A stretch of DNA of 64,000 nucleotides from Halorarum salinum (GTDB taxonomy: Archaea > Halobacteriota > Halobacteria > Halobacteriales > Haloferacaceae): the NCBI RefSeq assembly GCF_013402875.1, contig NZ_CP058579.1, positions 2,232,001-2,296,000 of the forward strand, written 5' to 3'. Shown piece after piece: positions 34,248 through 47,636 of the stretch (its first letter is position 1; each line of letters begins with the position of its first letter). The translations under genes and the position numbers were made by a program. Below the pieces are notes generated by a model that was given only the letters and a program-made list of their open reading frames with translations, had not been told where the DNA came from and made no database searches.

Positions 34248-36913
34248 ATGAGGTACGTACTGCTCGCTGTCGCGTTATCGCTCGTCATCGCAGGTTTGCC
34301 CACGGCCACCGCCCTCGACGGAAACGAGCCGCCGGTCGTCGACGCCGGACTCGACCAGTCGGTGGAGGTCGGGGACACCGTCTATCTGGATGGGGGCGGG
34401 TCGTTCGATCCGGACGGCGACCGTCTCACGTACGAGTGGAGCGTGGAGTCGCCGGACGGCTCGACGTTCCCGCCGGAGGGCGCCGGATCCGAACGAACGA
34501 GCTTCGAGGCGTCGGAGACCGGTCGATACTACGTGACCCTCGCCGCGACAGATGAGGACGGAGTAGAGCGAACTGACACGCTATACGTCGACGTCGGTCC
34601 GGCCGACGAGGAGTCGGAGGAGAACGGGGCGCCGACCGGTCGGATCTCCGGCCCGGACGCCGTGATTCGGGGGGAGTCCGCGACGTTCTCCGCCGACGTC
34701 TCGGACCCGGACGGGTCGATCGATAGCTACGGCTGGAGCACGGGTGCGCACGGTCGGACGACGGAGCGAACGTTCTCGGAGGCGGTCGGGGAACGGGTGA
34801 CCGTCTCGGTGACCGTGACGGACGACGACGGAGCCTCGACGCGTCTCACGAAGACGGCAACCGTGGTCGAGGACGGGTCCGAGTCGACGTCCAACAACGA
34901 TCCTCCCGGTGCCAGTATCGACGGTCCAGAACGATTGGGTGTCGGCGAGGGGGCGACGTTCCTCCTCAGGGGAGCGGACTCCGACGGGACGGTGGTGCGA
35001 CGGTCGTGGGCGGAGCCGGAGGCCACGTCCGGGTCGACGATCACCCGGTCGTTCGACCGGAGCGGGGAGTACACCATCCGCGGAACCGTCACGGACGATG
35101 ACGGGGCGACTGCGACCGCCAGCCACACCGTCGAAGTGTACGGAAGCGGGGAACCGGTCGTGAGCATCTCCGGGCCGGACACCGTTCCGTCGGGATCCTC
35201 CGCGAGCTATACGCTGGAGGCGTACGATCCGGACGGGGGCGAGCTGACGGTTTCCTGGTCGCCCGCACAGACTCGGCTGGAACGCGAGGCCTCGCCGTTC
35301 GACAACACGGTGCCCGTGGACGACCCTCCCGGTGAGACGCTAGTGGTTTCCGCGACCGTGACTGACGACGAAGGGCAGTCCGTGACGGTGGTGAAGCGGA
35401 CGAAGGTGACTAGGGTGACGGATAAGGTATGGGACGAGGCCTCACCTATCATTGACGACCTCACTTTCGCCTATCCGCCATCGATGGAGGAACGGATGGA
35501 CGACCGGTACGACGTCCACGGTGGAACGTACATCTACGGTGTGAACGTCTCGCACGATACGGGTGAGCGCGTCAACGTACGATGGGAGTTCAACGATAGC
35601 ACGACCTTGACGGACGCGCTCGGCCCGCTGGACGGGACCGTGAACTCGACGGTCGAACACCAGTTCATGTCGGAGGAGGGCGGGAAACAGACCAGGGCGA
35701 TCTGGGTCGAGGCGACCGACGGGTCCGGCGATCAGACGCGGCGGAAGTGGACCCATCGCGTCCACACGTCCGCCAGACACGACGATATCCGGTTCAGCGC
35801 GTCGGCCGGCGGCGAGTCCATCGGTGCCGATGGTCGTCTCACCGTCCCAGTCGGAACGACGGTTCGATTTGACGCGTTCTCCCTTCAATACTTCAGAGTG
35901 GAGTTCGGCGACGGTGTCGTCGAGCAGCACGATGGCTCTCAGGACTGGCAGTCGTTCCAGCATTCGTACGATGACCCTGGAACGTACACCATACAGATTT
36001 CCTCACATCAGGGGCCAGAGGGGTACGGGGCGAAACGAGTTACCATCCATGTCACTGGAGAATCTTACACTGAGTATTGGTACGAAGTCCGGGAAAAGAT
36101 GCGTGAACAAATTATCTCACAGAATAGTCCAGCAGGAGATAGTTGGGAGGCCATCTCTGTAGCTAGATCTGAGAGATATTTCACCGGAAACACGGAGACC
36201 TATGAAGGTCATCTTGCCGATAACATTGAACTCGGAGATGGATGGATACTAAATCGGACCTACACGGCCACACGCGAACGAACGAAGACCCGAGTCGCCG
36301 ACTTCGATCCCGTGGATCGGGTAGCACATGGACGCTCTCGGAACGGCGTGTCGAACAGGACACGGAGACCTATTTCGAGGACGAGTACACCTGGTACGGT
36401 GCGAGGTACGATCGGCCCGGATGGTCGTACACGGGCGAAACGCGGACCGAGAAGATCGTACACAGCGACGGGCACGACCACCGCCGACAGCGTCACGTCG
36501 ATTACGAACGGACGTCCTGTGCGGAGTGGGCGCTGGACCCGTCACCGTATGGCGGGTTCTCACGATCGTGTGAACGGTGGAACTACGAAAGAAACGTCTG
36601 GTACACTGGACACTATCATAGCGGATGGACGGAGTACGATACGGAGTACCAGTACCATCGTGAAGTCGAACGAACGAGGACTGTCTGGCTTCACGAGTAC
36701 GTGAAGACGTGGGAAGAGGCGGTTAGCGTCACGGAGTTTGCGGAAACAGAGACGCGAACCTTCTGGCTCTGGGAACGTCAGATACAGGGTGAATACGTTA
36801 CGGAGTACGCTCTCGAGAAACCGGGCAAGAACGACTACGTCGAAGGTACGCTCCGACAAGTGGAGGTCCTCTGCGGGTCAGGGGACAGTCATCACGACTC
36901 CGTCATGTGCTAG
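34248..36913 (+). pseudogene. Exported PKD-repeat surface protein, frameshifted
   Basis: The first frame from ATG 34248 has a signal peptide (RYVLLAVALSLVIAGLPTATA) and four Ig-like PKD domains: VVDAGLDQSVEVGDTVYLDG, ISGPDAVIRGESATFSADVS, IDGPERLGVGEGATFLLRGA and ISGPDTVPSGSSASYTLEAY. A further beta stretch has FRVEFGDGVVEQHDG. From about 36300 this frame loses sense, and another frame carries STWTLSERRVEQDTETYFED with a Tyr/Trp/Arg-rich C-terminus to TAG 36911-36913. Near 36313 CGGGTAGC would become CGGGGTAGC if one G were added, restoring about 888 codons. It may be a surface adhesin. AT-rich patches inside the gene suggest transfer. Confidence 0.75.
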
Positions 36914-37036
36914 CGGAGATCCGGAATGCCGAACCATTATATTTAAAACAAAAATAAAAGAATACAGGATTAGAAGGGAAGAATAATAAGCGAGCAACTA
37001 AGTCCGTCTTCGAAACTCGACCCAAAATCCAATACA
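36914..37036. promoter_or_regulatory. AT-rich promoter region of the CAP-domain gene
   Basis: Strong AT bias against a GC-rich genome (TTATATTTAAAAC at about 36937-36949 and AATAATAAGC nearer the gene). It probably holds the promoter of the lipoprotein pair downstream. The TATA candidates lie 60-100 bases before the ATG, so the exact start site is unclear. Confidence 0.45.
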
Positions 37037-37663
37037 ATGATGCCATGCCGGATCGCGATCGCCATGCTCCTCCTCCTTTCAGGTTGTGGCGCATATGCCA
37101 CTGATATAGCGACGACGGATGTGAAGGAAATTACTCGCGCTGATACGACCGAAGCGGATCACTCGGACCGTACAGGGTTCGGCCAACCTGATAGTGCTGT
37201 CAGCACTCCCGAACCTTTGCATAATAAAACACCACGAGGTGATATCAACGTTACTGAAGCTGAGAAGCACCTCGTAGCGGAATTGAATGATCATCGACTC
37301 ACAAATGATCTTGATACGTTAGTTGCTGATCCTCGCCTTGCGGTAATTGCCCGACATCACTCGTATGACATGGCGAACAGGGATTTCTTCGACCATGAGA
37401 ATCCAGACGAGCAATATCTCGGTGACCGATTGGATGAAAGTAGTTACAAATGCAGTCCAGGTGCAGAAAATATCCATTTGACTGGATGGTTAACAGGAAA
37501 CCGTACTACTGAAAGACAACTTGCATACGATTCTATTCTTTCATTTATGAGGTCAGCTCCACACAACGAAAATATGCTTACTCCCCAATTCACCACCACC
37601 GGAATCGGCATCTACGTTACAGAGGACCGCCACGTCTTCGTGACGATGTTATTGTGCAAATGA
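37037..37663 (+). CDS. CAP (SCP/PR-1) domain lipoprotein, low GC
   Basis: 208 residues. The signal sequence ends in a lipobox (AMLLLLSGCG), so the mature N-terminal Cys would carry lipid. A Thr/Asp-rich spacer leads to the CAP domain: VAELNDHRLTNDLDTLVADP, ARHHSYDMANRDFFDHENPD with conserved His residues, CSPGAENIHL with Glu, and APHNENMLTPQFTTTGIGIY. These carry the His/Glu tetrad of CAP proteins. GC content is clearly lower than in neighbours, and codon use is less biased, so recent transfer is likely. The next gene overlaps it by ATGA. Confidence 0.85.
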   Translation: MMPCRIAIAMLLLLSGCGAYATDIATTDVKEITRADTTEADHSDRTGFGQPDSAVSTPEPLHNKTPRGDINVTEAEKHLVAELNDHRLTNDLDTLVADPRLAVIARHHSYDMANRDFFDHENPDEQYLGDRLDESSYKCSPGAENIHLTGWLTGNRTTERQLAYDSILSFMRSAPHNENMLTPQFTTTGIGIYVTEDRHVFVTMLLCK

Positions 37664-38430
37664 CAAGACACCCACGAATGACACGCAACGAGACGCCCAA
37701 AATGACGGACAAGGACACCGTATCGGAACGAACCTCGCCGAAAAGCTCACCGAACAGACGGCAATTGCTCGCCGCGATGGGAAGCACTGCCTCGGTTACG
37801 ACCGCCGGTTGTCTCGGCCTGTTCAGTAGTAACCCCGTTCCGGAATCGGACGGAACCGACGACCGTTACACGACCGTCGAAAAGACGAACACCTTCGGAT
37901 TCGGAGGAACACAAACGCCGTTTCCCCCCGTACAGGGTATCTATCGGGGCTCCGGATCGGGAATTCTGGTCATCGCGTACTTCGACTACTCACACGAGGC
38001 TTCGCTCCAGTGGTGGCGTGAAGAGTACCCGGAACTGACCGACCTCGTGGACGAGGGGCGTCTCAGACTCACGTTACACATGTTCCCGAAACCCGTCGAC
38101 CAGTGGTCGGTCATGCTCCCGTCCGCCCTCTTCGAGGTCCGATCCCGTTCCTCCCGGGAGGCCGCCTGGACGTTCCACGAGCGACTCGTCTCGGCCGACG
38201 AGTACTCGATGGACCTGCTCGAACAACTGGCGAGTGATGTGGGAGTCCCGTCGGATGCCATCACCGAGGCAGCGGAAACCCGGCGTCGTCGAAATCAGGC
38301 GTTCAGCGACAAGGCGATGGGGGAGGACAGCGGCGTGGAGTCGCTTCCGGCGTTCAGATGGGGGATGGAGCGCATCGACGGCACCTCGGCCGAAGACATC
38401 CGGAAGTTCGTCGAGGAGCAACTGGACTAA
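37660..38430 (+). CDS. DsbA-like Tat lipoprotein lacking the CXXC active site
   Basis: 256 residues from ATG 37660, which overlaps the CAP stop as ATGA; ATG 37678 and ATG 37702 are also possible. The twin-arginine signal NRRQLLAAMGSTASVTTAGC ends in a lipobox Cys. The body has a thioredoxin-fold pattern (GILVIAYFDYSHEASLQWWREEYPEL, then RLRLTLHMFPKPVD). In DsbA/DSBA-like proteins the CXXC pair would follow this first strand; here the place reads FDYSHEAS with no cysteine. A redox role is therefore unlikely, and a binding or chaperone role is possible. It is probably co-translated with the CAP lipoprotein. Confidence 0.75.
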   Translation: MTRHPRMTRNETPKMTDKDTVSERTSPKSSPNRRQLLAAMGSTASVTTAGCLGLFSSNPVPESDGTDDRYTTVEKTNTFGFGGTQTPFPPVQGIYRGSGSGILVIAYFDYSHEASLQWWREEYPELTDLVDEGRLRLTLHMFPKPVDQWSVMLPSALFEVRSRSSREAAWTFHERLVSADEYSMDLLEQLASDVGVPSDAITEAAETRRRRNQAFSDKAMGEDSGVESLPAFRWGMERIDGTSAEDIRKFVEEQLD

Positions 38431-38446: not shown

Positions 38447-39634
38447 TTACTGGTTCTCCGGACTGCTGGGGTGGTACTCCGTATCGTACTCCCCGACCTT
38501 CCCGTCCAGCCGGTCCGGGTTGATCCGCCCGCCGAGCAGCATGAAGTCGAGCACCGTACACCACAGCATCGCCTCGACCACCGGAACCCCGCGGGGCGGG
38601 AGCACCGGATCGTGCCGGCCGACGACCTGGATCTCCTTCTCCTCGCCCGTCTCCCAGTCCACGGTCGTCTGCCGCTTCGGAATCGAGGTGGGCGCGTGGA
38701 ACGACACCTCGCCGTAGATCGGCTGGCCGGTGGTGATGCCGCCCTGGAGGCCGGCGTGGTCGTTGCCGACCGGCACCGGGTCGCCCTCCTCGCTCACCGT
38801 CTCGGAGTGACCCTCGCCCTCGTCGAACTCCCAGTCCTCGTTCCGGTCGTGGCCCGCCACCTCCCGGGCGTCGCGGCCGAGTCCGAACTCGAACGCGGTC
38901 GTCGCCGGGATGGACATCATCGCGCGGCCGAGGCGGGACGGGACCGAGTCGAAGCGGGGAGCGCCGAGTCCGCGCGGCACGCCGCGCGCCTCGAAGTAGA
39001 TGGCGCCGCCGATGGAGTCGCCCGCCTCCTGGTACTCGTCGATCAGGTCCCGCATCCGCTCGGCGGTCTCCGGATGAGCACATCGGACCTCGTTCCCCTC
39101 CGAGTGTTCCAGGATCTCCTCGAAGTCCACTTCGGGCGCCTCGACGTCGCCGATCTGGTTGACGTGCGCCTTGATCTCCACGTCGTACTCGCTCTGTTCG
39201 AGGGCCGTCCTGGCGACCGCGCCCGCGGCGACCCAGTTCACCGTCTCCCGGGCCGACGAGCGACCGCCGCCGCCCCAGTTCCGCGTGCCGAACTTCGCGG
39301 AGTAGGTGAAGTCGCCGTGGGAGGGTCGCGGGGCGGTGACGAACGGCTCGTACTTGCCCGAGCGGGCGTCCTTGTTCCGGATGACCATCCCGACCGGCGT
39401 GCCGGTGGTGTAGCCGTCCTGAATCCCGGAGTTGATCTCGACCGCGTCCGGTTCGTCCCGACTCGTCGTGATCATCGACTGGCCGGGCTTGCGCCGGTCG
39501 AGTTCGCGCTGGATCTCCTCCTCGCTCAGTTCGACGCCGGCGGGCACCCCCGACACGGTACAGCCCATCGCGTCGCCGTGGCTCTCCCCGTAGGTGGTGA
39601 CCCGGAAGAGCCGGCCGAACTCGTTCCCGTTCAT
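38447..39634 (-). CDS. aroC: Chorismate synthase
   Basis: 395 residues. The family signature FRVTTYGESHGDAMGC, the RKPGQSMITTSRDEPD loop, RPSHGDFTYSAKFG, and GGGGRSSARETVNWVAAGAV are all present. It converts EPSP to chorismate with reduced FMN, the last common step of aromatic amino acid synthesis. A TATA (ACTTTATACC) lies 22-31 bases upstream. It converges with the DsbA-like gene, 16 bases apart. aroA and tyrA lie further along the window but not in one operon with it. Confidence 0.95.
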   Translation of the reverse strand: MNGNEFGRLFRVTTYGESHGDAMGCTVSGVPAGVELSEEEIQRELDRRKPGQSMITTSRDEPDAVEINSGIQDGYTTGTPVGMVIRNKDARSGKYEPFVTAPRPSHGDFTYSAKFGTRNWGGGGRSSARETVNWVAAGAVARTALEQSEYDVEIKAHVNQIGDVEAPEVDFEEILEHSEGNEVRCAHPETAERMRDLIDEYQEAGDSIGGAIYFEARGVPRGLGAPRFDSVPSRLGRAMMSIPATTAFEFGLGRDAREVAGHDRNEDWEFDEGEGHSETVSEEGDPVPVGNDHAGLQGGITTGQPIYGEVSFHAPTSIPKRQTTVDWETGEEKEIQVVGRHDPVLPPRGVPVVEAMLWCTVLDFMLLGGRINPDRLDGKVGEYDTEYHPSSPENQ

Positions 39635-39757
39635 GGCCGGAAGTGAGTGACTCAGGGTATAAAGTCCGGCGAAGGTGGCGGGAACCGCAGGGCGTCGGTC
39701 CCTCCCACCCGATCGCCGGGACGACGGGCGGTCGGACGACTGAGGGCCGGTTTCGAG

Positions 39758-42700
39758 CTACGGCCGTCGGAGCGTCAGCGTCGCGACGGCGAACGTCCCG
39801 CCGAGGACGAAGGCGATCGCCGGGTAGTGCGGGCCGCTCCCCGCAGCCCCCCTCGCTGGCTGGACCGACGCGGACGCCCCCGTCGGCGACTCCGTCGGAG
39901 TCCCGGTCGGGGTTTCGGTCGTCACGACGGTGTACTGGATCAGTTCCGAGGCGAGCACCTCGTCGGTGTCCGCGTCGTGGATCGAGACGGTGACGGTCGT
40001 ACTCCCGTCGAGCGGCGTCGTCAGGGGGAGGTCGCCGTCGACGAGGTCGCCACCCTCGTACTCGACCGACCGCGCGACCTCCCGGCCGTCCGCGCCGACG
40101 GAGACGTAGAAGTCGACCGGGGCGGAGGCCTCCGCGAGGGACACGCTCGACCCGTCGCCCGTCTGATCCTCGACGCGCAGGGTCACGGCCGGCGAGGCGG
40201 TCGTCGTCCGTCCGGGCGGCGACGTAGTCGTCAGTCGGTCGGTCGGCGACTCGGTGGTCGGCGGTCCGGTCGGAACCTCCGTCGCGGTTTCGGTCGGCGT
40301 TTCCGTGGCGGTCGCCGTCGGTGTGTCCGTCGTCGTTGCAGTTGGCGTGTCGGCGGGCGTCCCGGTCGTCGTCCCAGTGGGCGTGTCGATGGGCGTCTCC
40401 GTCGGAACCTCCGTGGGAGTTACGGTGGGCGTCTCGGCCGGGGTATCCGTCGGCGTGTCGGTGGGCGTCTCAATAGCCGTCACGACGGGCGTCTCAGTAG
40501 CGGTCACGACGGCCGTCTCCGTGGCGGTCTCGGTCGGAGCGCTCGTCGGGGTCCCCGTCGGCGTCCCGGGCGTCACGTCCGCCCCCTCGACGGTCACCTC
40601 GGACTCCGCGACGACCGGAACGCCCTCCTCCGCGTACGGTCCGTCGTCGGCGCCGTCGGTCGCGACGAAGTCGAACTCGCCGTCGTCGTCGGTGTCCCGG
40701 TACGGCACGACGAACGCCGTGGCGGACTCGTCGAGAGGTTCGTCCAGTTCGACGGCGACGTCCTCGTGAGTGCCGGGTTCGAGGTAGTCGGAGACGCCGA
40801 TGACGCTCGACCCGGGTTCCTGGACGGCGAACTCCTCGGAGTGAACGGCGAGGTAGCCGCCCTCGGAGAGGGTGGCCGAATCGACCACCACGGCGGTCCC
40901 GTCCGACGTCTGGTCGGACACGCTCACCGTGGCGGCGCCCGCCTCGACCGACAGCTCGGCGTCGTCGATCACCGGCGCGTTCTCGGCGACGTACGGGAGG
41001 TCCTCGCCCGCAGAGGTCGCGACGTAGTCGAACTCCTCGTTCCCGTTCGTGTCGAGGTGCGGCACCGCCGCGATCGCCGCCTCGTCCTCGAGCGCGTCGT
41101 CATCGAACTCGCGTCCCGGCACGTCGAACAGCGTCACCGTGACGTTCTCGTGGGTGCCGGGGTCGAGGTAGTCGGAGACGCCGACGACGCTGCCGAACGG
41201 ATCGCTCCCGACGGCACCGCCCTCGCGGACGGTGACGAAGCCGCCCTCGGAGAGGGTCACCGACGAGACGGTCACCGTCGTCCCGTCCGTCGACTGGTCC
41301 GCGAGGGCGACGTCCGCCTCCCCCTCCACGTCGGGCACCGAGAGGTCAGCGCTCTCGGTCTCGGCGGCCCGAGCGACGTCGTCGACGTCGTCGATCCCCT
41401 CCTCGGAGGCGCTGCTCGCCGCGCCGGCGGACTCGACCCAGGTGGCGTACTGGAGTTGCTGGACGGACACCTCCTGGGCCTGCGAGAGGGCCCCCCGGCA
41501 ACTACCGCGTGCCGCCCCCTCGATCTGGTTCGCGGTCGCGCGCCCGGACTGCGAGAGCGCGCCGCTGGCCGCGCTCTGGGTGACGATCTGCACCTGGACG
41601 ACGGTCACCCGCTGCACCTGCACGCCGCCGGCGGCCGCCCCCCGGGCGGCGGACTGCACCTGCTCGACGGTCACCCGCGTGTACTGAACGACGGACCCCT
41701 TCGCCGCACCGTACGCGGCCGACTGGATCTGGACGAGCGACACCCGCTGGACCTGCGTCAGCGACCCCTCGGCCGCGCCGCTGGCCGCCGCCTGAAGCTG
41801 CTCGACCCGCACCGTCTGCCGCTGGAACGTGCCGGAGGCGGCGCCGGAGGCGGCGCCGTAGGCCGCCCGCTGCACCTGCTCGACGGTCACCGTCTGGACC
41901 TGACGAAGGGCGCCGCCCGCGGCGCCGCTCGCGATCGACTGGGTCTGCTCGACGGTGATTCGCGTCCGCTGGGAGAGCGCGCCGTCGGCGGCGCCGTGGG
42001 CGGCGTACTGGATCAGTTCGACGTCGACGGTCTGCCGCTGGACGGCCTGTCCCACCGCACCTCCCGCGGCACCCTCGGCCGCGTACTGTGCCTGCTGGAC
42101 GTCGACCGACTGTCGCTGCGAGACGACGCCGGATGCAGCGCCCGTCGCCGCGTACTGTACTTGCTCGACGGTCGCCTCCTGTGACTGCGTTAGCGCGCCC
42201 TTGGCCGCCCCGCGTGCGGCTCGCTGGACTTGCGTCACGTCCGCGCGCTGGGAGACGGCGCCCTTGGCCGCCCCGTGAGCGGCGAACTGGAGCTGTTCGA
42301 CGGTGGCGGACTGGTGCTGCTCGAGGGCGCCGCCGGCGGCGCCGCGGGCGGCGAACTGCACCTGCGTGACGTCGACCTCCTGAACCTGCGTGACCGCCCC
42401 GGTCGCGGCGCCGCGGGCGGCCGACTGGATCTGTTCGACGTCGACCACCTGCCGCTGGGCCGCCCTCTCGCAGGCGCCGTGGGCGGCCCCCTCCGCGGCG
42501 ATCTGGATCTGCTCGACGGTCACGGTCTGGGACTGGACGAGCGCGCCCGCTGCCCCGCCCCGCGCCGCGGCCTGGATCTGTTCGACGGTGACCGACTGTC
42601 GCTGCGTTGCGGCCCCCTTCGCCGCGCCGCGAGCCCCGCCCATCGCGGCCACCTGGACCTGCTTGACGTCCGCCCGCTGGTGCTGTTCGAGGGCACCGCG

Positions 42701-43417
42701 TGCGCCGCCGGTGGACGCGGCCTGGAGCTGTTCGACCGACACGCGCTGGCGCTGGGTGAGTGCGCCGTAGGCCGCACCCTGCGCGGCTTCCTGTACCTGA
42801 CCGACGTGGGTGACCCCCCGCTCGACCGCGCCGCGGGTGGCTCCCGACGCCGCGCCGCGGGAGACGCGCCGGAGTTGTTCGGCCGTCACCGACCCCCGCT
42901 GCGCGAGCGACCCGTGGGCGGCCCCGTGGGCCGCGCTCTGGATCTGGGTCACCTCAGCCTCCTGATGCCGTTCGAGGGATCCCTCGACGCTCCCTCCCAC
43001 GGCCGCCCGCACCTGCGTGACGTCGGTTACTTGCTCCTGCAGGAAGGCACCGTGTGCGGCGCCCCGGGCCGCCCGACTGACCTTCCCGTCGCTCGCGTCC
43101 GGATACTCCGCGGCGGCCTCGGCCGCCGCCTCGCTCGCGGCCTCGACCTCGTCGTCGGTCACGTCGGCGCCCTGATCGCGGGCCAGGTCCGCGGCGCGCT
43201 CGACCCCGTCGATTGCCGCCCGCTGCTGTGCCGCCCCCGCCGACCTGTCCGCGACCCGGTCGGCCGCGCCGTCCGGACCGTCACCCGCCGCCGACCCGTC
43301 GGCCCCGTGAACGCCGGCCGCGCCGAGCGATCCGCCGGCGAAGGCCGCGAGAAGCAGGACGCCGACGAGCGCGAGGGTCGTCCGGAGGAGCGCGACCGGG
43401 ATGTCCTCGTCAGTCAT
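39758..43417 (-). CDS. Very large repeat surface protein: about 23 Gly/Ala/Gln repeats, DUF7282 domains, TP stalk, membrane anchor
   Basis: 1219 residues. A signal or anchor helix (VALLRTTLALVGVLLLAAFAG) and an acidic, Ala-rich spacer lead at about residue 113 to roughly 23 imperfect repeats of about 23 residues with consensus V-T-V-E-Q-V-Q-x-A-A-x-G-A-A-x-G-A-L-x-Q-x-Q, ending near residue 665. Some units carry a 3-4 residue insertion. Three DUF7282-like beta domains follow (SVTLSEGGFVTVREGGAVGS, DSATLSEGGYLAVHSEEF). Then a Thr/Pro stalk, probably O-glycosylated, a third beta module, and a C-terminal helix AIAFVLGGTFAVATLTLRRP. Likely a cell-surface protein; no enzyme motif. Confidence 0.8.
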   Translation of the reverse strand: MTDEDIPVALLRTTLALVGVLLLAAFAGGSLGAAGVHGADGSAAGDGPDGAADRVADRSAGAAQQRAAIDGVERAADLARDQGADVTDDEVEAASEAAAEAAAEYPDASDGKVSRAARGAAHGAFLQEQVTDVTQVRAAVGGSVEGSLERHQEAEVTQIQSAAHGAAHGSLAQRGSVTAEQLRRVSRGAASGATRGAVERGVTHVGQVQEAAQGAAYGALTQRQRVSVEQLQAASTGGARGALEQHQRADVKQVQVAAMGGARGAAKGAATQRQSVTVEQIQAAARGGAAGALVQSQTVTVEQIQIAAEGAAHGACERAAQRQVVDVEQIQSAARGAATGAVTQVQEVDVTQVQFAARGAAGGALEQHQSATVEQLQFAAHGAAKGAVSQRADVTQVQRAARGAAKGALTQSQEATVEQVQYAATGAASGVVSQRQSVDVQQAQYAAEGAAGGAVGQAVQRQTVDVELIQYAAHGAADGALSQRTRITVEQTQSIASGAAGGALRQVQTVTVEQVQRAAYGAASGAASGTFQRQTVRVEQLQAAASGAAEGSLTQVQRVSLVQIQSAAYGAAKGSVVQYTRVTVEQVQSAARGAAAGGVQVQRVTVVQVQIVTQSAASGALSQSGRATANQIEGAARGSCRGALSQAQEVSVQQLQYATWVESAGAASSASEEGIDDVDDVARAAETESADLSVPDVEGEADVALADQSTDGTTVTVSSVTLSEGGFVTVREGGAVGSDPFGSVVGVSDYLDPGTHENVTVTLFDVPGREFDDDALEDEAAIAAVPHLDTNGNEEFDYVATSAGEDLPYVAENAPVIDDAELSVEAGAATVSVSDQTSDGTAVVVDSATLSEGGYLAVHSEEFAVQEPGSSVIGVSDYLEPGTHEDVAVELDEPLDESATAFVVPYRDTDDDGEFDFVATDGADDGPYAEEGVPVVAESEVTVEGADVTPGTPTGTPTSAPTETATETAVVTATETPVVTAIETPTDTPTDTPAETPTVTPTEVPTETPIDTPTGTTTGTPADTPTATTTDTPTATATETPTETATEVPTGPPTTESPTDRLTTTSPPGRTTTASPAVTLRVEDQTGDGSSVSLAEASAPVDFYVSVGADGREVARSVEYEGGDLVDGDLPLTTPLDGSTTVTVSIHDADTDEVLASELIQYTVVTTETPTGTPTESPTGASASVQPARGAAGSGPHYPAIAFVLGGTFAVATLTLRRP
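41430..43030 (-). repeat. Region of about 69-base coding repeats inside the surface-protein gene
   Basis: About 23 diverged units of roughly 69 bases (23 codons) sit head-to-tail. On the plus strand they show as recurring CTGGATCTGTTCGACGGT and GGCCGCC blocks. Repeat divergence at third positions points to old duplications, but neighbouring units share enough sequence to recombine. Units with inserted GAAKGAA or GAASGAA are the main length variants. Confidence 0.75.
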
Positions 43418-43587
43418 CGTCTATCACACGGTACGCCCCGTCGACGCTCCCGGGAAAGAGTCTACTTACGCGATTGCGGCCGGCGGCACCGACGTTGCTG
43501 TGACGTTGCGGCGACCTGGTTGCCGTTGCCGGTCACACCGTTGCGCGAAACAGGGTCGATGGCTACGTCACGGCCCGATGGTTCGCG

Positions 43588-44949
43588 TCACGGCCGGGAG
43601 GTGCACGCCCGACGCTCGCGGACGCGCATCCGAACCGGCCCGGTCGGCCGCGTCGTGATGCTCGCCTGCAGGTCCAGGTCCGCGGGCTCGACCGGTTCGA
43701 GGCGGTACCTGCGGAGGATCGTCGCGAGCACGAGTTTCGCCTCGAGCATCGCGAACCGGTCGCCGACGCAGCGGCGGGGTCCCGCGGAGAACGGGAAGTA
43801 CGCCAGCGCGGGGAGGTCGGCTCGCATGTCGTCGGTCCACCGGTCGGGGTCGAACGCGAGCGGGTCGTCGTAGAGGTCGGGGTCGCGGTGGACGACCCAC
43901 TGGCTGATGGAGACCGGCGACCCGGCCGGCACCCGGTAGCCGCCGAGGGTCACGTCCTCCGTGGGTTCGCGCAGCACGCCGTGGACCGGCGGGAGCAGGC
44001 GCATCGACTCCGTGACGACTCGGTCCAGGTACTCCAGTTCCTCGACGTCCGTCAGCGTGGGGACGTCCCCGTCGAGCACGTCGTCGAGTTCCGCGAGGAG
44101 TCGGCGCTCGATCTCGGGGTTCCGCGCAAGCAGGTGGTACGTGAACGTGAGCGACAGCGCGGTCGTCTCGTGGCCGGCCAGCAACAGCGTCTTCACCTCG
44201 TCGCGGACCTGTTCGTCGCTCATCCCCTCGCCCGCCCCGTTCTCCGCGCGCAGGAGCGCGGAGACCACGTCGTCGCCGGGGTCGCGTCGCTTCTCCTCGA
44301 TTATCCCGTCGACGATGCGGTCGAGGGTCGCGACCGCCTCGTGGACCGACTGCCGCGCGGGAGTCGGGACCCACAGGGGGAGCAGGTCGGTCAGCGACCC
44401 GACGGAGGCGTCCATCACGTCGTCGAGCGCGGCGCCGACGGCCGGGGTCCGGTCTCGGATGTCCACGCCCATCAGCGCGGTGGCGACGACGTCGAGCGTG
44501 AGCCCCATCGACTCCCCGTGGACGTCCCTGACGTCGCCGTCCCGCCAGCCCGACGTCGCGTCCACGGTCCGCTCGGTCATCATGTCGGCGTACGCCGCGA
44601 TGCGGTCGGGGCCGAACGCCGGCTGGACGAGGTGGCGCTGCCGCCGCCAGAACTCGCCCTCGCTGTTGAGCAGGCCGTTTCCGAGCACCGGACCGAGCTG
44701 CCGCTGGAACAGGTCCCCCTTGACGTACTTCCCGTTGTCGTGGACGAGCACCCGCTCGATCAGGTCGGGGTCGGTGAGGAGGAACACGTCCGTCCCGAGC
44801 ACTGAGTAGCGGGCGATCCCGCCGTGCCGTCGGGCGACGCGCTCCCGGAAGCCGAACGAGTCGCGGCGGACGTCGAGGAACGACCCGACCACGGGGAGCC
44901 CGTCCGGTCCCGGGACGTCGCCGGGCGGGCGCACGCGTTCGCCGCTCAT
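43588..44949 (-). CDS. Cytochrome P450
   Basis: 453 residues from ATG 44949 (MSGERVRPPGDVPGPDGLP); the frame continues upstream to 45033 but with no family support. Oxygen-binding I helix is LLLAGHETTALSL, K-helix ESMR is in RVVTESMRLLPPV, and the heme loop is FPFSAGPRRCVGDRFA with the thiolate Cys. The pattern is that of a CYP102/CYP4-like class seen in haloarchaea. It has no membrane anchor, so it is soluble, and needs an external ferredoxin. The substrate is unknown. It sits between the surface protein and the alcohol dehydrogenase. Confidence 0.92.
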   Translation of the reverse strand: MSGERVRPPGDVPGPDGLPVVGSFLDVRRDSFGFRERVARRHGGIARYSVLGTDVFLLTDPDLIERVLVHDNGKYVKGDLFQRQLGPVLGNGLLNSEGEFWRRQRHLVQPAFGPDRIAAYADMMTERTVDATSGWRDGDVRDVHGESMGLTLDVVATALMGVDIRDRTPAVGAALDDVMDASVGSLTDLLPLWVPTPARQSVHEAVATLDRIVDGIIEEKRRDPGDDVVSALLRAENGAGEGMSDEQVRDEVKTLLLAGHETTALSLTFTYHLLARNPEIERRLLAELDDVLDGDVPTLTDVEELEYLDRVVTESMRLLPPVHGVLREPTEDVTLGGYRVPAGSPVSISQWVVHRDPDLYDDPLAFDPDRWTDDMRADLPALAYFPFSAGPRRCVGDRFAMLEAKLVLATILRRYRLEPVEPADLDLQASITTRPTGPVRMRVRERRACTSRP

Positions 44950-45048
44950 ACCCGTCGCTGGCGCTCGGCGGACATAGGGGTTGGTCAACCGGACGTCCGT
45001 TCCGCGCGGTTGTCGTCCCGTTCCGGGGTCCACCGGGGACGAACCGGA

Positions 45049-46248
45049 CTACCAGGCCGCCTCGAGGATCCGTCGGGCGTCTTCGACCCCGAGTTCGTAG
45101 CCGGCCGGCGCGTTGCCGAGCAGCGGATCGGCCGCCGTCGCCTCCGCGGCCTCCTCCACCCCGTCGCACGTGGCGCCCTCGACGTCCCGGAGTCGACCCG
45201 GCAGGCCGAGCGCGTCCCCGAGTCGATCCGGCAGGCCGAGCGCGTCCCGGAGGTCGGCCACCCGGTCGACCACCTCGTCGCCGTCGTCGGCCCCGAACGC
45301 CTCGACGAGCGCGTCGGTGTCGGCCGACGAGTCGAACAGGTCGGCGAGCGCGTGCGGGGCGACGACCGCGTGGGCGACGCCCTGTTGCATCGCGAAGGCG
45401 TCCCTGAGCCCGTGGCCGAACGCGTGGAGCACGTTGAGCGTCATCGAACCCGGCCGGGAGACGCCGTACTGGGCTAGGACGACCCCCGCGACGGCCGCGT
45501 CCATCGCGTCCGCCGACTCCGTCATCCGCGGGAGCCCTTCGAGGAGGTATCGAACCGCCCGCGTCGCCGTCGCGTCGGTGATCGCGGACCGGTGACGCGC
45601 GTACAGCGACTCGACCGCCTTGTCGAACCCGTTCATGGCCGACCCTGCGAGCACGGCGTCCGGGGTCGTCTCGAACAGCGCCGGGTCGTAGCAGAACGCG
45701 GCCGGCATCAGCGCGTCGCCGCCGACGCCGGTGCTCACTTCCTCGCCGTCCACCTCGACGGTGATGCCGGCGACGACCGACATGTCGGCGCCGGCGAGCG
45801 TCGTCGGGACCGGAACGAGCGGCGTGGGGGCGGCGCCGTCGGCGGGCATGGAGATCCCGCCGGACTCGCGCACCTCGGCCCGGACGTCCTCGATGCCCCG
45901 GCCGTCGGCGCGGAGCGCGCTCGCCACCTTCGCCACGTCGAGGCTCGACCCGCCCCCGACCGGCACGAGCGCGTCGGCGTCGAGTCCGTCGGCCAGTCCG
46001 GCCACCTCGACGGCCGTCTCGGCGCGCTTGTCCGGCGTCGTCCCGTCGAAGACGTCCGCGAGCCGGTCGCCCAGCCCCGCCTCGACGCGGTCCATCAGGT
46101 CGCGGTTCGCCCCGACGTTCCGGCCGCAGACGACGAGCGCCCGGTCGAGTTCCTCGTCCGCGAGCGCCTCGCCCAGGTCGGCGACGCGGCCGCGGCCGTA
46201 GCGGATCGTGCCGGGCCTGAACTCGAAGACGAACGGGTCGACGTTCAT
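45049..46248 (-). CDS. Iron-containing alcohol dehydrogenase
   Basis: 399 residues. Nucleotide-binding VPVGGGSSLDVAK, VPVPTTLAGADMSVVAGITV, and the metal ligands ALFETTPDAVLAG..D, LNVLHAFGHGLRD and GVAHAVVAPHALADLF match the family. It oxidises or reduces an alcohol/aldehyde with NAD(P). A 30-base tandem duplication (45190-45249) inserts GLPDRLGDAL near residue 345. Substrate unknown. A promoter element CGTTTTCGTGG lies about 25 bases upstream of ATG 46248. It is 100 bases from the P450 gene on the same strand. Confidence 0.9.
   Translation of the reverse strand: MNVDPFVFEFRPGTIRYGRGRVADLGEALADEELDRALVVCGRNVGANRDLMDRVEAGLGDRLADVFDGTTPDKRAETAVEVAGLADGLDADALVPVGGGSSLDVAKVASALRADGRGIEDVRAEVRESGGISMPADGAAPTPLVPVPTTLAGADMSVVAGITVEVDGEEVSTGVGGDALMPAAFCYDPALFETTPDAVLAGSAMNGFDKAVESLYARHRSAITDATATRAVRYLLEGLPRMTESADAMDAAVAGVVLAQYGVSRPGSMTLNVLHAFGHGLRDAFAMQQGVAHAVVAPHALADLFDSSADTDALVEAFGADDGDEVVDRVADLRDALGLPDRLGDALGLPGRLRDVEGATCDGVEEAAEATAADPLLGNAPAGYELGVEDARRILEAAW
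45190..45249 (-). repeat. 30-base tandem duplication inside the alcohol dehydrogenase gene
   Basis: Two 30-base copies (45190-45219 and 45220-45249) differ at only two positions (ACC/ATC and a final C/G). It duplicates ten residues, GLPxRLxDAL, in frame in the C-terminal helical domain. A recent slippage event is likely. Confidence 0.8.
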
Positions 46249-46319
46249 ACGCGCACGACGGACGCCGCCACGAAAACGGTGCTGGCCCCGGAACGGTCGC
46301 GGTCCCCGATCGTCCCTCG

Positions 46320-47636
46320 TCACTCCGCGCGGGCGGTCCCACCGGGTTCCGAATCGACGGCCGCCCCGAGCGCGGCGAGCGTCCCGAAGAAGCCGGGGAA
46401 CGACACCTCCACGTGTTCGGCGCCCCGGACGGTCGTCTCCCCCTCCGCGACGAGGCCGGCGACGGCGAGCGCCATCACGAGGCGGTGGTCGCCCCGGCCG
46501 TCGACGGTCGCCCCGCGGAGGTCCGAGTCGTCGCCGTGGACGGTGAGCGAGTCGGGTTCCTCGGTGACCGAGGCGCCCATCCGGCCCAGTTCCTCGGCCA
46601 TCGCGCTCACGCGGTCGGTCTCCTTGTAGCGGACGTGCTCGGCGTTCACGATCCGGGTGTCGCCGTCGGCGACGGCGCCGAGGGTCGCGATCGTCGGCAG
46701 GAGGTCCGGCGTGTCGCCGACGTCCACCTCGACGCCCGAGAGGGCCGAGCGGCGGACGGCGATCTCTCCCGCCCCGCGGTCCCAGTCGACGTCGGCGCCC
46801 ATCCGGTCGAGGACGTCGACGATCGCCGAGTCGCCCTGCGCGCTCGGCCGGGCGCCCTCCACGACGACGGGTTCGCCGCCCGCGGCGGCGACCGCGCCCG
46901 CCGCGAGCAGGTACGAGATCGAGGAGAAGTCGCCCGGGACCGCGTACTCGTCCGCGCGGTACGACTGCCCGCCGGGGACGGCGAAGCCGGCGTCGGTCCG
47001 CTCCGTCTCGACGCCGAACGCGTCGAGCACTTCGCGGGTTATCTCGACGTACGGCGCCGACTTCAGCGCCGTGCTCAGGTCGACCCGGACGCCCCCATCG
47101 GTCACCGCGCCGGCCATCAGCAGCGCGGTCACGAACTGCGAGGAGACGTCCCCCGGGATGGAGACGGCCCCGCCTTCCATGCCGTCGCCGACGACGAGCG
47201 GCGCCCGCCCGTTCCGCCGGGTCGACTCCGCGCGGCCGCCGAGCGCCTCCACCGCCTCGAGGAGCGGTCCCTGCGGCCGCGACCGGAGCGAGTCGTCGCC
47301 CGTGAGGACGACGAGGTCGGCGGCGAGGCCCGCGGCGGCGGTGACGAGTCGCATCGTCGTCCCCGAGTTCTCGCAGTTCACCACGTCGTCGGGCGTCCTG
47401 GGGCGTCCGTCGAACCCGTCGACGCGGGCGGCGTTCGCGGCGTCGTCCCACTCGACGGCGCCCCCGAACGCCGTCACGGCCCGGCCGGTCGCGCGCGGGT
47501 CCGCGCTGTCGAGCGGGTCGCGGACGACCGTGCCGTCGCCGTAGCCCGCGGCGAGCAGCGCACGGTGCGTGTAGCTCTTCGAGGGCGGCGCGCGCGCCCG
47601 GCCGGCGACCCGCGAGGGCGAGATGCGTGCGTCCAT
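46320..47636 (-). CDS. aroA: 3-phosphoshikimate 1-carboxyvinyltransferase (EPSP synthase)
   Basis: 438 residues. Substrate lysine motif [19 protein letters not shown], phosphate motif [30 protein letters not shown] and the RYKETDR plus [15 protein letters not shown]-terminal blocks define the two inside-out barrels. It joins PEP to shikimate 3-phosphate in the cytoplasm. It lies 72 bases upstream of the alcohol dehydrogenase gene and may be transcribed with it. Confidence 0.95.

Follow-up and report, generated by a model that had tools for sequence, protein, structure and literature searches.

The window, a stretch of 64,000 nucleotides from contig NZ_CP058579.1 of Halorarum salinum, carries on its minus strand a gene (39758..43417, ATG start) for a surface protein of 1219 amino acids, all of whose segments are given here on that same strand. 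The protein begins with a signal segment (aa 1-33; 43319..43417), which reaches a hydrophobic maximum of 2.31 on the Kyte-Doolittle scale and was present in 53 of 53 homologs examined. This is followed by helical N-terminal cap units together with unit 0 (aa 61-124; 43046..43237), a segment including H122 and delimited by conservation and by AlphaFold (AF2) pLDDT values of mostly 91-98, and then by 23 predicted single-helix units of 23 (21-27) residues each (aa 125-666; 41420..43045), placed with a position-specific matrix and AF2. The remainder is composed of a first DUF7282 domain (aa 701-820; 40958..41317; PF23951, E=2.7e-32), a second one holding the best PF23951 stretch (aa 829-942; 40592..40933), a Thr/Pro-rich stalk evident from the sequence (aa 947-1076; 40190..40579), a degenerate third DUF7282-like domain (aa 1080-1153; 39959..40180; E=0.0029; 18.2 bits, below the cut-off of 27) and a C-terminal transmembrane anchor of hydrophobicity 2.01 on the same scale, ending in RRP (aa 1198-1219; 39761..39826).

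Signal peptide, stalk and anchor are therefore all present, in agreement with the surface location proposed in the initial annotation, whose DUF7282 domains (two full PF23951 copies and a third below the cut-off) and Thr/Pro stalk (aa ~947-1076) were also recovered. The C-terminal anchor it described stands for the window protein but not as a family trait, since only 9 of 53 homologs have one and 44 are without. Moreover, no PGF motif precedes the C-terminal transmembrane segment in the last 60 residues of any of the 53 homologs, a motif required of PGF-CTERM archaeosortase substrates, among which, on its sequence, the protein does not belong. Over the whole protein, PF23951 gives E=6.6e-68 and 226 bits (curated cut-off 27), a membership that, judged by the matched region, holds for the stalk only. 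The PDB sequence match AaBgIC was discarded, since it covers just the low-complexity Thr/Pro stalk.

Regarding the surroundings, chorismate synthase (38447-39634) and EPSP synthase (46320-47636) bracket the surface protein gene and a cytochrome P450 gene (43588-45033), all on the minus strand; the latter two genes have possibly been inserted into an aro cluster (38447-47636 of the window). In addition, positions 36001-38000, whose genes encode CAP and thioredoxin-like domains, show a GC content of 0.52 versus about 0.70 around them and represent a possible foreign island. In Natrialbaceae the gene sits between a divergent bioY and DUF7545/DUF5799, while no conserved neighbour was found outside that family. 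An operon partnership with BioY, the ABC ATPase, DUF7545 or DUF5799 was consequently rejected in favour of synteny, as these are conserved only in Natrialbaceae. A presenilin/signal-peptide-peptidase gene (L048:5465-6703 and five further loci) adjoins the homolog in several genomes, including those of Halorussus and Halobaculum.

Of 391 Halobacteria genomes, 113 contain homologs, as do 95 of 111 good Natrialbaceae genomes (family membership was read from the names of the organisms to which the same contigs belong), and the distribution elsewhere is patchy. Only a marginal match lay outside the order among 295 sampled genomes of the phylum, and in a species-wide scan 52 of 52 loci belonged to Halobacteria. 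Most of one large archaeal family has this gene, mostly in single copy, with a repeat that bears neither name nor model in the libraries searched. A viral or mobile origin was discarded, no phage record or viral contig having matched and only five plasmid records.

The repeat itself was located with the position-specific matrix, which gave 23 units at aa 125-666 with successive spacings of 23, 23, 26, 23, 23, 27, 23, 26, 23, 23, 21, 23, 23, 26, 23, 23, 26, 23, 23, 22, 23 and 23 residues, that is, a period of 23 with +3/+4 variants; one further clear unit (aa 102-124) and one or two degenerate helical units upstream of it were also recognised, the whole region covering about 560 residues. Two motif searches yielded 14 matches each in this domain, whereas 1000 shuffles of it averaged 0.045 and 0.001 matches and never exceeded 2 and 1, respectively, so that the repeat is far beyond chance. 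The 23-residue Gly/Ala/Gln repeat of about 23 units noted at the outset was thus confirmed, and merely the wording of its consensus had to be slightly amended, since the 795 pooled units are best described as L-x-Q-x-Q-x-[VA]-[TSND]-[VI]-x-Q-[IV]-Q-x-A-A-x-G-A-A-x-G-A, with the four Gln at 92-97%. Taking the first helix Gln as position 0, the consensus is made of -10 (L/V/I), -8 (Q, 95%), -6 (Q, 97%) and -4 (V/A), followed by -3 (T/S/N/D, 87% together), -2 (V/I), 0 (Q, 92%), +1 (I/V/L) and +2 (Q, 97%), and then by +4 (A), +5 (A), +7 (G, 90%), +8 (A), +9 (A), +11 (G, 91%) and +12 (A), while positions -9, -7, -5, -1, 3, 6 and 10 are variable. From -10 to +4 the consensus follows a strict i+2 alternation. 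In Natrialbaceae (L021-L051) some linkers carry exactly 8 or 16 additional residues, giving spacings of 31 and 39, and consist of Q-x-Q-x-V-x-V-x modules, a second periodicity nested in the first. A paralog in the same genome (L014:6280-10629; C1:3.38 Mb) encodes 1449 aa with units of about 26 residues (DVEVEVSPELVQNAARGAAKGSI), in which the same helix core is joined by acidic V-x-V linkers replacing Q-x-Q, and then an ASH/HYDIN Ig-like domain.

Between species the number of units ranges from about 7 to 23 and the stalk domains vary, being exchangeable among DUF7282, CARDB and beta-helix, while the head is constant. Within the genus, 20 of the 23 units best match their own counterpart in the ortholog L015, with a dN/dS of 0.16-0.27. 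This unit-by-unit orthology, together with purifying selection, means that the length and order of the array are fixed between same-genus orthologs, unlike those of recently expanded repeats. In fact, a recent tandem expansion was rejected on the same grounds and because the units are on average 59% identical at the DNA level.

AF2 predicted both the window protein and its Haladaptatus homolog L068 as all-helical, each unit forming one helix of 16-18 residues from about position -2; the +3/+4 units appear as helices of 20-22 residues, with one helical turn added. The T, S, N or D at -3 is of the kind that typically N-caps a helix, and this capping residue, along with the variable positions -1, 3, 6 and 10, is in the consensus the pattern of a helix running from -2 to about +13. 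For the window protein, pLDDT values are mostly 91-98 over roughly the first seven units (160 residues), much of the later array falls below 70, and there are differences among the five AF2 models (mean pLDDT 44-68 and 55-77); the overall shape is therefore uncertain, and the helix directions and the layer geometry are inferred.

A second level of order is provided by the comparison of units along the array, as in two antiparallel layers the helix residues of a unit should resemble unit i+2 more than unit i+1. The excess identity at helix positions for steps 1 to 6 was 0.001, 0.063, 0.001, 0.026, 0.001 and 0.021, and the even-minus-odd difference in 16 divergent representatives lay above all 2000 order permutations (p<5e-4), the window protein alone giving p 0.0125. 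The linker positions showed no period-two alternation (permutation p about 0.2-0.3; 0.22 in the representatives). Furthermore, the strongest couplings between neighbours (i/i+1) include 12-5, 5-10, 10-5 and 8-8, with sums of 15-17 as in antiparallel helices, while the strongest step-two couplings (i/i+2) include 10-10, 7-7 and 10-6, in register as in parallel helices. When permutations were applied identically across orthologous arrays, so as to remain ortholog-coherent, 0 of 100 reached the step-one antiparallel and 5-10 statistics or the step-two in-register one. Nevertheless, an in-register signal also exists between neighbours (helix diagonal 1.09, 0 of 100 permutations, 11-11 among the top pairs), which is weaker than that of step two (1.60) and at odds with an antiparallel register.

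Taken together, the AF2 helices, the period-two alternation and the couplings indicate that the repeat domain would be a two-layer up-down alpha-solenoid with a true period of 46 residues, and not an amyloid. The initial annotation had offered two alternatives for the repeat. Helices stacked through small residues were supported; the amyloid-like fibre was not, since the stacked beta-strands that would define it are absent from the predictions of both proteins, and period two and covariation speak for a discrete alpha-solenoid. The repeat would thereby constitute a clean example of a single-helix unit that conceals a period of two units.

At normally variable positions between H122 and K252 (42662..43054, minus strand; even units 0, 2, 4 and 6), polar and aromatic residues form a patch that is conserved among homologs. 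It comprises H122, an aromatic residue or His at 164 (H in the window protein, Y/F/W among homologs), H168, E210, Q213, Y217 and K252, that is, position 10 in unit 0, positions 6 and 10 in unit 2, positions 3, 6 and 10 in unit 4 and position -1 in unit 6. As an earlier conservation test had been partly circular, its loci having been fetched and anchored by the conserved motif, it was repeated on 44 homologs obtained by profile or protein search in which the patch motif played no part. At least 5 of the 7 residues were kept in 35 of these 44 proteins, with conservation of 76% for H122, 82% for H168, 82% for E210, 84% for Q213, 84% for Y217 (as Y/F) and 87% for K252. All six helix sites with a conservation of at least 70% lie on even units (chance 0.02, hypergeometric, 28 sites), and step-two couplings connect positions 6 and 10 of even units; in the two-layer model the even helices, with all the patch residues, would form one face. 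In six divergent paralogs the whole patch has been lost together, and three further homologs keep part of it. A conserved polar patch at otherwise variable positions is an argument for a specific site, as opposed to a purely generic fibre, and it may be a binding site for a metal, a glycan or another protein, supplying seven named residues for mutation.

As regards composition, the repeat domain contains 7% Asp+Glu, with a net charge of about 0 both in the window protein and across 55 homologs, whereas the remaining parts of these proteins have 24% and -0.22 charges per residue. In a survey of about 460 kb of the host genome, with approximate gene calls based on codon-position GC, it is the lowest Asp+Glu stretch among non-hydrophobic windows, the other non-hydrophobic proteins of the host averaging 17%, while its Gln content is about 16% against an average of 2%. 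The domain thus departs from the usual acidic composition of halophiles, Gln replacing acid, and allows salt adaptation to be studied in a single domain, for which the acidic stalk provides the internal control.

On the basis of computed quantities (the repeat, the period-two alternation, the couplings, the conservation and the near-neutral charge) and of a predicted helix per unit, we consider with moderate confidence that the protein is a displayed, membrane-anchored two-layer alpha-solenoid of single-helix units with a putative ligand-binding patch, its three-dimensional packing and its binding function being the deduced parts of the model. The gene product would be secreted and anchored in the membrane, and its N-terminal domain would consist of single-helix units, 24-26 in number and 23 residues long; in each, a helix of 16-18 residues, with T/S/N/D as its cap and A/G at the packing contacts, would lead into an extended Q-x-Q-x-V linker. 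Neighbouring helices would run antiparallel, so that two units (46 residues) would make one structural repeat, with odd and even helices as the two layers. The first seven units would represent a conserved head bearing the polar patch on its even-helix layer, where H122 to K252 could bind a small molecule, a metal or an envelope component; the later units, variable in number between species, would serve as an extension, and the DUF7282 domains and the Thr/Pro stalk would keep the solenoid off the membrane.

Other explanations have to be weighed against this one. The protein could have a structural role alone, as a spacer or coat element: a stiff rod that lies within the S-layer or above it, binds no specific ligand, and has conserved N-terminal residues that would only cap and stabilise the head. 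The variation in unit number (~7 to 23), the exchangeable stalk domains (DUF7282, CARDB, beta-helix) and the lack of a conserved operon partner outside Natrialbaceae would suit such a role. Nevertheless, the conserved His, Glu, Gln, Tyr and Lys occupy what are otherwise the most variable positions of the unit, and they do so on one layer only, a pattern that capping would not require, so that we consider a rod of this kind rather doubtful. Somewhat less probable still is the proposal of the initial annotation, a self-associating fibre or adhesin in which solenoids would associate side by side or head to tail for cell-cell or surface adhesion: a nearly uncharged, Gln-rich domain (7% D+E vs 17% in the host) displayed on a stalk could favour self-association at high salt, but 44 of 53 homologs are without the C-terminal anchor and no amyloid-type strand was predicted for the two proteins modelled.

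The alternating linker pattern can also be read as a beta/alpha solenoid with Gln ladders, in which the L-x-Q-x-Q-x-V linkers would stack as parallel strands and all helices would point in the same direction. The strict i+2 alternation from -10 to +4, the extension of Natrialbaceae linkers by 8-residue Q-x-Q-x-V-x-V-x modules and the V-x-V-x-V linkers of the L014 paralog agree with this arrangement, which was set aside as very improbable because neither AF2 model contains a strand, the T/S/N/D at -3 is typical of a helix N-cap, and a period of one unit would account for neither the period-two alternation nor the antiparallel couplings.

As for known families, the repeat region gave no match in Pfam, NCBIfam, PHROGs, PADLOC or PDB sequences, which supports the initial annotation on the lack of a description for this repeat; on sequence comparison, the domain matches no named protein family. 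DUF7282 was the sole Pfam hit of the window protein, HEAT, TPR, ARM, LRV and TALE models were absent from the matches at E<=1 for 52 homologs, and no literature on the protein was found. At the structural level, Foldseek and VIA-align ranked TALE, FD15 and DHR structures at the top, but these matches were weak, superposed poorly and belong to a common type of helical repeat (FD15, Z 11.8, rmsd 9.8; DHR10, Z 7.3, rmsd 5.9); no close PDB relative emerged from this search, which does not in itself prove a new fold, and a viral fold library gave nothing at E<=0.001. It can tentatively be proposed that the domain belongs to an unnamed alpha-solenoid class of 23-residue single helices with invariant Gln pairs, with a nearly uncharged surface adapted to saturated salt by Gln in place of acid, acting in most Natrialbaceae as a displayed receptor or as a metal- or ligand-binding, possibly catalytic, head.

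Compared with known systems, the likeness to DUF7282 (PF23951) surface proteins resides in the two full DUF7282 copies carried in the stalk; the domain is confined to that part, is missing from some homologs (L068 and L066, for example) and is uninformative on the solenoid. With Gly-zipper_YMGG the repeat shares GxxxG and Ala neighbours for close helix contact, but only 1 of 52 members touches that model (E 0.037), and its helices, placed in the proposed repeat solenoid, do not resemble membrane helices, their mean hydropathy being 0.26 and no helix exceeding 1.6. The closest systems are HEAT, TPR, ARM and TALE proteins and the designed FD15 and DHR10, with which the proposed model would share two layers of stacked antiparallel helices, an arrangement favoured by AF2, the period of two and the couplings, though the superpositions on PDB structures were poor. 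Nevertheless, the unit of the known alpha-solenoids is a helix pair, while here it would be one helix of 23 residues; the repeat differs from all of these in its A/G packing, its invariant Gln and the lack of any sequence match, and from other alpha-solenoids in being secreted, nearly uncharged and from a halophile.
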